DNA of 64,000 nt, taken from positions 3,097,001 to 3,161,000 of the forward strand of contig NZ_CP116967.1 in the NCBI RefSeq assembly GCF_032050975.1, written 5' to 3'. A program made the position numbers and the translations under genes. This document shows, piece after piece, positions 50,718 to 53,233 of this stretch; positions within the stretch are counted from its first letter, which is position 1, and each line of letters begins with the position of its first letter. Under the pieces are notes generated by a model. That model had not been told where the DNA came from and ran no database searches. It saw only the letters and a list, made by a program, of their open reading frames with translations. The stretch comes from Candidatus Nitrospira allomarina (lineage in GTDB: Bacteria; Nitrospirota; Nitrospiria; Nitrospirales; UBA8639).

Positions 50718-51284
50718 CTAATGCGGATATTGGTGTTCGCGGCAAATCAATTGAATGTCTTGCACACTTAACGGTTCTCGTGTCAAACCGCAGACATACC
50801 CGTTCTTCTCATGATCCTCATTGAAACGACAGGTGTGGCAGGCACCGAAGGCTTTTCGTCCATTGACCTGCTGCATTCCTCGCAGGATTGAGCGCAATGC
50901 AGAAGTCAGTTCAGCGATTTTTATTGAATCCGTCCTCGCCAGTGCCGGTTCCAGGCTTCTGGTGAGAAGGGCCTTTTTTATGAGATTGCTCCCTTTGGCG
51001 GTCGGCGCAAGGCGTACGATTCGTTTGTCCTCATTATCCGCCTGCTTCCGCAGGAATCCCTTCTGCTCTAAGACCTTGAGCGATTGTGAGACGGTTCCCT
51101 TCGTGAGACCCAGATACTCCGCCACGGCTTGCGGCGTATTTGAATAGCGATTGCATTGCGTCAGATACGTCAGCGCTTCCATCTGCACGGGTTGTAATCC
51201 GTAACGCAGGCCAAACGCCCGTGCCTCCATCCGTTGCAGGTTGCACAATCGTTCTAAGACATCATTGGCTTCTTGTGCGCTCAT
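50718..51284 (-). CDS. MarR-type regulator with four-cysteine C-terminal tail
   Basis: 188 residues. A MarR winged helix (SNTPQAVAEYLGLTKGTVSQSLKVLEQKGFLRKQADNEDKR) is followed by a dimerisation helix and a tail with Cys149, Cys152, Cys165 and Cys181, spaced C-x2-C-x12-C-x15-C. The tail is suited to an iron-sulfur cluster or zinc and would make this a redox or nitric-oxide sensor. A perfect palindrome lies nine bases upstream of its start, and a second site near the divergent promoter, so it probably represses both directions. No Shine-Dalgarno is seen. Confidence 0.85.
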   Translation of the reverse strand: MSAQEANDVLERLCNLQRMEARAFGLRYGLQPVQMEALTYLTQCNRYSNTPQAVAEYLGLTKGTVSQSLKVLEQKGFLRKQADNEDKRIVRLAPTAKGSNLIKKALLTRSLEPALARTDSIKIAELTSALRSILRGMQQVNGRKAFGACHTCRFNEDHEKNGYVCGLTREPLSVQDIQLICREHQYPH

Positions 51285-51292
51285 AGGTCAAT

Positions 51293-51309
51293 TGTATCGT
51301 CTCGATACA
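51293..51309. promoter_or_regulatory. MarR operator 1
   Basis: TGTATCGTCTCGATACA is a perfect 7-base inverted repeat with a TCT centre, just upstream of the MarR start and just before the -35 box of the divergent promoter. Confidence 0.7.
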
Positions 51310-51312
51310 GAT

Positions 51313-51341
51313 TTGACAAATGCGGATATTGCTGCTAAATT
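51313..51341 (+). promoter_or_regulatory. Sigma-70-type promoter for the thioredoxin-fold gene
   Basis: TTGACA (51313-51318) and TAAATT (51336-51341) are 17 bases apart. The promoter is bracketed by the two MarR-type sites, which fits repression. Confidence 0.65.
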
Positions 51342-51347
51342 CCATTT

Positions 51348-51364
51348 AGTTTCGACTCAATACT
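51348..51364. promoter_or_regulatory. MarR operator 2, degenerate
   Basis: AGTTTCGACTCAATACT agrees with operator 1 at 12 of 17 positions. It lies at or just after the expected transcription start of the divergent promoter. Confidence 0.5.
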
Positions 51365-51393
51365 AATTACAATCTTTCAAAAGGAGGCAGTGT

Positions 51394-51636
51394 ATGAAGA
51401 AGGCCGTGTTTTATCATGCAGGGTGCCCGGTCTGTGTTTCTGCGGAAACCATGGTGACTCAGGCCATCGATCGTCAGCAATACGATTTGGAAATCGTCCA
51501 TTTTGCACAAACACCAGGTCGGGTGGTTGAGGCTGAAACGGCAGGTGTGAAGTCTGTTCCTGCCCTGGTGTTAGAGGGGCAGGTATTTCACGTGAATTTT
51601 GGTGCATCCATGGACGATGTGAAAGCCAGTATTTAA
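51394..51636 (+). CDS. Small thioredoxin-fold protein (glutaredoxin-like)
   Basis: 80 residues. CPVC at 11-14 is the redox motif, VKSVPALVLEG the cis-Pro loop. It resembles short glutaredoxin/thioredoxin-like proteins. AAGGAGG precedes the ATG. It is the first gene under the divergent promoter controlled by the Cys-rich MarR protein, followed by a truncated hemoglobin gene; a role in thiol or nitrosative stress is inferred from this. Confidence 0.87.
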   Translation: MKKAVFYHAGCPVCVSAETMVTQAIDRQQYDLEIVHFAQTPGRVVEAETAGVKSVPALVLEGQVFHVNFGASMDDVKASI

Positions 51637-51725
51637 GGCGAAAGACTTTATGTACGGGAGTAAGACGGGTAGCTAGGGATAGCCTGAACGCCGACTCCCG
51701 GTTATCAACGAAAGGAGTAAATCGT

Positions 51726-52184
51726 ATGCGTGCATGGGTGAGGAATGTGTGTCTCGGGCTCGCTCTAGGGTTGTCCATGAGTGGGGCGGCCTGTTCAACG
51801 GTTGAACCCCCGGCGGGAAAGGCGAGTGCATCGTTGTACGACCGGTTAGGGGGAAAGCCGGCTATCACGGCGGTCATCGATGAATTTGTGGGCAATGTTG
51901 CTAACGATGCCCGTATTAATAGTCGCTTTGCCACTACCGATATTCCGAAACTGAAGGGACATCTGGTGGATCAAGTCTGTGAAGCGACTGGTGGGCCCTG
52001 CACCTATACGGGCAGGGACATGAAGTCGACGCATGCGGGAATGCGGATTACCAATGCCGACTTTACGGCTATGGTTGAGGACCTGGTCACGGCACTCAAT
52101 ACATTCAAGGTTCCGAAACCGGAACAGGATGAATTACTTGGGCTGCTCGGTTCCATGAAATCTGATATTGTCGAAATTCCATAA
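51726..52184 (+). CDS. Group 1 truncated hemoglobin lipoprotein
   Basis: 152 residues. A signal peptide ends in the lipobox SGAAC (Cys23), unusual for a globin, and is followed by the truncated hemoglobin fold: LYDRLGGKPAITAVIDEFV, GGPCTYTGRDMKSTHAGMRIT with His103 as the proximal heme ligand. Anchoring in the periplasmic envelope points to oxygen or nitric-oxide chemistry outside the cytoplasm. GAAAGGAG precedes the ATG. It is 89 bases after the thioredoxin-fold gene and probably in its transcript. Confidence 0.9.
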   Translation: MRAWVRNVCLGLALGLSMSGAACSTVEPPAGKASASLYDRLGGKPAITAVIDEFVGNVANDARINSRFATTDIPKLKGHLVDQVCEATGGPCTYTGRDMKSTHAGMRITNADFTAMVEDLVTALNTFKVPKPEQDELLGLLGSMKSDIVEIP

Positions 52185-52215
52185 TACTGCCTGGAATATT
52201 TGGTTCTGTAAAAGT

Positions 52216-52245
52216 CTTGGGGGGATGAGGTCTCATCCTCCCAAG
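52216..52245 (+). terminator. Strong hairpin between globin and MOSC genes
   Basis: CTTGGGGGGATG pairs with CATCCTCCCAAG (one G-T pair) around a short loop. It is 31 bases after the globin stop. Only a weak T-rich stretch follows, so it may be a terminator or an RNA-processing stem. Confidence 0.5.
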
Positions 52246-52363
52246 TACCCTGGATCTTTCTTAATAGAGCACGCCGGCGGAGTCTTGCTTCAGAGTCAGC
52301 TATTCCTGAGAATGGCTGCTTGGCCGTCCCGGGAGATCACTATTCAAAAAAGGAGAGTGAGAA

Positions 52364-53233
52364 GTGACAAACGGTTTGCAATCCGAAATGGGAGTTATTC
52401 AGTCGTTGTGGCGCTATCCAGTCAAGTCGATGAGAGGTGAGGCCTTGTCCCTTGCTCAGGTTACTGATCATGGACTTGTCGGAGATCGTGCCTATGCCAT
52501 CCTGGATCGTGCCGATGGCAAAGTGGCCACAGCCAAAAATCCCAAAAAATGGCCCAATATGTTTGCCTTTCAGGCAACATTCCTGGAGCCGTCTGGAGAT
52601 AAAGAATCCGGATCTCGCATCCGCATCACGCTGCCTGACGGCACAATGGTTACCAGTGAGCAACAGGATCTGCCTCAGGTCCTTTCCAAAGCTCTGAACC
52701 GTAAGGTCACTCTGGCGCTCATCGAGGGTGGGAAGGTGACCGGCGTCCAATCACCCATGCCTGAAACCTGGATTGCGCAGTCTGAGGAATACTGGCCTGA
52801 CATGGATGGTCGGGAGAAACGGGATACCGTGACGGATTTCTCTCTTCCGACCGGCACGTTTTTCGATGCCGCAATGGTACACCTTTTGTCCACCGGCACG
52901 CTTAATCAGCTTCGTGAAGCGTATCCGGAAGGGCGTTTTGAGGTGCCGCGGTTTCGGCCGAACATTGTTGTGGACACTGGAGTTGATAAGCAAGGCTTTA
53001 TCGAACAGGGGTGGATTGGTCAGACGCTAGGCATTGGGGAAAACGTGCGATTGAAGATTGCCGGCTCATGTGGTCGGTGTGTCATGACCACGCTCGCGCA
53101 GGGAGAACTTCCAAAGGACCCCGGGATTTTACGCACGGCGGTCCAACACAATCTTGGCAATGTCGGGGTCTATGCTTCAGTCATGCAGGGCGGCGCAATT
53201 CGAATCGGGGATGGTATACGTTTGGAAAAATGA
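52364..53233 (+). CDS. MOSC domain protein
   Basis: 289 residues. An N-terminal beta-barrel domain (IQSLWRYPVKSMRGE, DHGLVGDRAYAILD) is followed by the MOSC domain with RFRPNIVVDTG and GSCGRCVMTTL, where the Cys pair may bind the molybdenum cofactor or sulfur. Members include nitrate- or N-hydroxyl-reducing mARC-like proteins. The start is GTG, with GGAGAG seven bases upstream. The hairpin at 52216 separates it from the globin gene, so it may be transcribed on its own. Confidence 0.88.
   Translation: MTNGLQSEMGVIQSLWRYPVKSMRGEALSLAQVTDHGLVGDRAYAILDRADGKVATAKNPKKWPNMFAFQATFLEPSGDKESGSRIRITLPDGTMVTSEQQDLPQVLSKALNRKVTLALIEGGKVTGVQSPMPETWIAQSEEYWPDMDGREKRDTVTDFSLPTGTFFDAAMVHLLSTGTLNQLREAYPEGRFEVPRFRPNIVVDTGVDKQGFIEQGWIGQTLGIGENVRLKIAGSCGRCVMTTLAQGELPKDPGILRTAVQHNLGNVGVYASVMQGGAIRIGDGIRLEK

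Follow-up and report, generated by a model that had tools for sequence, protein, structure and literature searches.

The closest functional precedent for the regulator described here is ArnR of Corynebacterium glutamicum, a winged helix-turn-helix (wHTH) protein with a [4Fe-4S] cluster that represses hmp and is freed from DNA upon nitrosylation (PMC12343034). Both proteins combine a MarR/ArsR-type wHTH with a C-terminal cysteine region, and while ArnR represses the gene for an NO-consuming globin, hmp, in connection with nitrite metabolism, our marR faces a globin gene (PMC12343034). Yet ArnR has three conserved cysteines (179, 193, and 223) in a larger TRAPPC3-like C-terminal domain where ours has four in a short tail, and it is almost confined to Actinobacteria, whereas the present family is found in other phyla and with other targets (PMC12343034). 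NsrR offers a working analogy as an Fe-S, NO-sensing repressor of NO detoxification, but as an Rrf2 protein it belongs to a different family. Similarly, the MarR-family repressors MepR, OhrR, MftR, and FabT share with our regulator its fold and a divergent, autoregulated layout, but PDB matches to it align over the MarR domain and NCBIfam equivalogs all score far below cutoff.

The target genes have a parallel of their own in the Chlamydomonas NR/NOFNIR (ARC)/THB1 NO cycle, which, like our locus, brings together a mARC-type MOSC molybdoenzyme and a truncated hemoglobin around nitrite and NO; that cycle, however, is eukaryotic and driven by nitrate reductase, with neither operon nor regulator in common (PMC7412212). 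Our literature searches found no paper linking a MarR protein to P460 or cytochrome c'-beta, or to thioredoxin, globin, and nitrite oxidizers, and the Cys4-tailed MarR family appears to be undescribed so far. Here, we propose that the regulator acts as a dedicated, local autorepressor and that NO or related species release it via a metal center in its tail, probably an Fe-S cluster, a reading to which we give an even chance of being right.

A divergent regulator and a three-gene target operon

The locus lies in a 64,000-nucleotide stretch (here, the window) of the Candidatus Nitrospira allomarina genome, which is a single contig of 4.55 Mb. Between positions 50718 and 53233, marR (50718 to 51284, minus strand), encoding a 188-amino-acid (aa) MarR-fold regulator, is divergent from three plus-strand genes. 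These encode an 80-aa thioredoxin-fold protein with a CPVC motif (trx3, 51394 to 51636; Pfam Thioredoxin_3), a 152-aa group 1 truncated hemoglobin (51726 to 52184), and a 289-aa MOSC protein (52364 to 53233). Orthologous loci in the genus and family retain all four genes while the outer flanking genes vary, which argues that MOSC belongs to the unit. An earlier note on this DNA had already marked out the unit, which its recurrence with other flanks places far from chance; the span given there reached the end of the MOSC gene, although its title left MOSC unnamed. A stable hairpin in the globin/MOSC gap (52215 to 52246, plus strand; CTTGGGGGGATGAG..CTCATCCTCCCAAG) is conserved in the genus and could be an attenuator, although its U-tract is weak or delayed and not clean here. 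Since this hairpin precedes MOSC, cotranscription of that gene is not assured.

Two relatives depart from this layout. In one (L034, G005:C12), an insertion separates marR from trx by about 1.1 kb, with operators on each side; trx has a full operator pair and a -35 element of its own. In another (L031, G006:C243), a second marR copy has a degraded-looking operator 2, and intact trx3, globin, and MOSC genes are absent next to it.

An invariant four-cysteine tail

The regulator matches Pfam MarR_2 (PF12802; E value, 3.8e-13; 49.8 bits against a cutoff of 27), and the Foldseek matches listed for its AlphaFold2 model (pLDDT 90) are MarR-fold proteins, placing it in the MarR wHTH superfamily. Matches in the PDB span about 140 columns, the MarR domain. 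All NCBIfam equivalogs score far below cutoff, and no Rrf2 domain was among the Pfam hits to an E value of 0.01, setting it apart from NsrR and IscR; Rrf2 proteins are present elsewhere in the same genome. A tail of ~40 aa has the spacing C149-x2-C152-x12-C165-x15-C181, an x2-x12-x15 pattern different from that in the published description of ArnR.

To collect relatives, GTDB genomes were scanned with N-terminal motifs alone, so that the tail cysteines were not selected for; of at least 523 relatives, 80 were kept, 79 of them with upstream DNA. All four tail cysteines, which the earlier note had singled out, are conserved without exception (69 of 69 sequences), even where identity falls to 44%. 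Such conservation would be equally consistent with an Fe-S cluster, a zinc site, or a thiol switch. Other Nitrospirota genomes encode more distant MarR proteins whose tails (CxxC...C...DC.E[HY]) resemble this one (L180 to L183, in G287, G256, G223, and G297); judging by eye, genes for rubrerythrin-like and Fe-S (CCG-type) proteins lie near the one in G256 and an Fe-S protein gene near that in G297.

Alternatively, the tail may be a Zn(Cys)4 site with a structural role, and sensing may take place elsewhere, through a small-molecule ligand of the MarR pocket or through the near-invariant Cys44. The C-x2-C-x12-C-x15-C spacing and the beta hairpins of the predicted model are compatible with a zinc knuckle, and Cys44 is found in 62 of 69 sequences, although one retrieval motif contained it. 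ArnR, on the other hand, uses its C-terminal Cys region as the sensor (PMC12343034), and the targets include NO-related heme proteins, leaving a structural zinc site an unlikely but still serious contender.

Target proteins in the window and across phyla

In the window, the nearest PDB entry to Trx3 is 2k8s (E value, 4.5e-30), whose protein we take to be NE0084, a name that was not mentioned in the literature searched. The globin (Bac_globin; E value, 3e-17) is closest in the PDB to Mycobacterium tuberculosis HbN and has the TrHb1 fold, with its proximal His aligned to that of HbN. The earlier note described a membrane-anchored truncated hemoglobin, and the signal sequence, the lipobox, and an N-terminal Cys retained in the orthologs agree in predicting a lipoprotein. 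At position B10, however, Val is aligned to Tyr33 of HbN, which makes efficient NO dioxygenation by this globin unsure. The MOSC protein has the MOSC_N and MOSC domains (PF03476 and PF03473) and, in its orthologs also, a CxRCxMTT motif that aligns to mARC1, as expected of the mARC/YcbX group. Enzymes of the mARC type reduce nitrite and N-hydroxylated compounds (PMC5372681).

Across relatives, marR and its operator pair occur in at least five phyla (Nitrospirota, Nitrospinota, Proteobacteria, Acidobacteria, and Myxococcota), and the divergent operons draw on a small set of genes. Among the 76 loci for which 400 bp or more of upstream DNA was available, these operons encode Trx3 (32 loci), an exported protein of ~248 aa (U248; 27), a P460-fold protein (22), a redoxin (12), MOSC (12), globin (10), and DUF2024 (8). 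Trx3, the P460-fold protein, or U248 is present in 66 of the 76 and never in the other orientation. U248 has no Pfam match, and a structure search with its low-confidence model (pLDDT 67) found no fold match. It recurs as a divergent target in Gammaproteobacteria and Acidobacteria, and the protein at L105:3915-4655 and its relatives share HPDFDDTPL.DE, which is invariant, and a conserved motif, HxHWVVL.

The P460-fold targets match PF16694 (E value, 1e-32), with 6hih as the nearest PDB entry (E value, 3e-53), and carry the Phe61/Gly82 signature, recognized by pattern in 14 of the 17 proteins tested and by visual inspection in the remaining 3. They have Phe in place of the Lys and lack a distal carboxylate, which identifies them as cytochromes c'-beta, a type of NO-binding heme protein. 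Detoxification of hydroxylamine by cytochrome P460, suggested by these 160-aa CxxCH neighbors, was discarded because this signature and the closest structures indicate c'-beta; characterized c'-beta proteins do not oxidize hydroxylamine (PMC11928373). Another P460-fold protein is encoded in the Ca. Nitrospira allomarina genome (L173, G000:C1:923733-924125), adjoined, by eye, by a YHS-type protein.

The presence of cytochrome c'-beta, the truncated globin, and MOSC among the targets suggests a role for NO or other reactive nitrogen species; redoxin and Trx3, however, fit peroxide or thiol stress as well. Under a thiol/peroxide switch, the tail cysteines would form disulfides or persulfides with H2O2, hypochlorite, or reactive sulfur, and the targets would be thiol and peroxide enzymes. 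Trx3 (32/76) and redoxin (12/76) are indeed frequent targets, many hosts are sulfur oxidizers, one of the distant Cys-tail MarR genes, in another Nitrospirota genome, has (by eye) a rubrerythrin-like gene nearby, and peroxidase-like activity is known for c'-beta (PMC11928373). Against this, no catalase, Ohr, or sulfur oxidation gene was seen in the divergent operons, and globin, MOSC, and c'-beta suit NO better, so that we consider such a switch improbable. The earlier proposal of a nitrosative or redox stress switch, which overlooked MOSC, is supported by c'-beta opposite marR and the operators in other phyla and by the truncated hemoglobin and mARC-like MOSC here.

Paired operators in register with two promoters

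As expected for the MarR superfamily, a palindromic operator lies in the promoter region of marR itself. Operator 1 (TGTATCGTCTCGATACA, 51293 to 51309) has arms matching at 7/7 positions around a 3-bp center and sits just 5' of the trx -35 element; operator 2 (AGTTTCGACTCAATACT, 51348 to 51364) matches operator 1 at 12/17 positions, has 5/7 matching arms, and covers the predicted trx start site. Between them, TTGACA (51313 to 51318) and a -10 TAAATT (51336 to 51341, plus strand) with a 17-bp spacer form the predicted trx promoter. These elements are exactly as the earlier note gave them, but it overlooked a second predicted promoter beneath operator 1, that of marR (TTGTCA-N17-TACAAT, minus strand; -10 at 51291 to 51296), whose 17-bp spacer operator 1 fills. 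TTGACAA (51313 to 51319) is nearly its own reverse complement and can thus serve as the -35 element for both divergent promoters. The marR start codon lies 6 nt past the -10 hexamer, here and, as ATG or GTG at exactly this distance, in 54 of 72 relatives, so we predict a leaderless transcript, a feature that the earlier note also passed over.

By itself, the 12/17 match of operator 2 would be weak. Support for the pair comes from relatives, which show very little variation in operator 1 and often carry a second site that is near perfect and more palindromic than that of the window, e.g., TGTATCGATTCGATACT in G031. Two GTATCGNNTCGATAC-like sites 47 to 60 bp apart (15-mer starts; mode, 55) are present in 72 of 79 relatives, compared with both sites at the expected distance in 0.35% of dinucleotide shuffles. 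Measured from the operator 1 15-mer, TTGAC[AG] starts exactly 4 bp past site 1 in 68 relatives, in 64/72 as TTGACAA, and the trx promoter keeps its 17-bp spacer in 58/72.

Relative to the trx start, site 1 lies at about -47, roughly where a class II activator would bind, but with operator 2 over the start site, operator 1 within the marR promoter, and a perfect trx -35 element, we think it very improbable that the protein activates trx while its cofactor is intact.

A small, local regulon

In 11 relatives, nearly all exact operator sites are at the marR locus. The Ca. Nitrospira allomarina genome has two other exact matches, one in a gene of a corrinoid biosynthesis cluster and one in a methyltransferase-like gene; as both lie within genes, a wider regulon in this genome was dropped. 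Several Methylococcaceae that lack the target genes also lack the operator pair. Judged by exact matches, then, this seems to be a local, dedicated switch.

The version found in nitrite oxidizers

In the loci that we examined, MOSC and globin are confined to one clade (97/96 support), which comprises Nitrospirota and three Nitrospinaceae; the latter carry MOSC but no globin. From their lineages, the Nitrospirota and Nitrospinaceae hosts are expected to be nitrite oxidizers. A tree with Nitrospirota alone as one clade was rejected (p-AU 0.035), a modest test on what are largely metagenome-assembled genomes. As Nitrospirota are not monophyletic in this respect, the tree hints at transfer of the marR version between the two phyla. 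The marR products of the Nitrospinaceae trx3-MOSC loci (L081 to L083) are 74 to 77% identical to that of the window, as close as that of L080, from the window's genus.

DISCUSSION

Comparison of relatives shows, at the level of sequence, a recurring unit, its operators and their register, a conserved Cys4 tail, and a small local regulon. For repression, cofactor, signal, and enzyme roles, we infer the following scheme. MarR dimers would bind the two ~17-bp palindromes about 55 bp, or five turns, apart, the dimer at operator 1 blocking marR and that at operator 2 blocking trx. Both promoters would be shut because operator 1 fills the marR spacer and operator 2 covers the start of trx3-globin-MOSC. 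The Cys4 tail would carry a metal center, for which an iron-sulfur cluster is the most likely identity; damage to this center by NO or a related reactive nitrogen species would cause the dimer to leave the DNA and the operon to be expressed. Outside the cytoplasm, the truncated hemoglobin could then oxidize or trap NO, with the MOSC protein possibly reducing N-oxygenated compounds or nitrite and Trx3 supplying or repairing thiols.

More tentatively, with the balance tipped somewhat against it, the family as a whole may be a cross-phylum sensor of NO or reactive nitrogen species with a fixed design of two operators, a shared -35 element, and a leaderless regulator gene, of which the nitrite-oxidizer phyla exchanged a version running an NO cycle of truncated hemoglobin and mARC-like MOSC, a bacterial parallel to the algal ARC/THB1 system.

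The base-level promoter register makes this locus well suited to studies of a switch that combines two operators with a shared -35 element, and the regulator, operators, and target set can be assayed in cultured Shewanella, Marinobacter, Neptunomonas, Pseudoalteromonas, and Corallococcus. If the proposal is correct, it would give cytochrome c'-beta and the uncharacterized ~248-aa exported protein a stress context. For nitrite oxidizers, which face high nitrite and NO, the regulator would be a candidate sensor of nitrosative stress.
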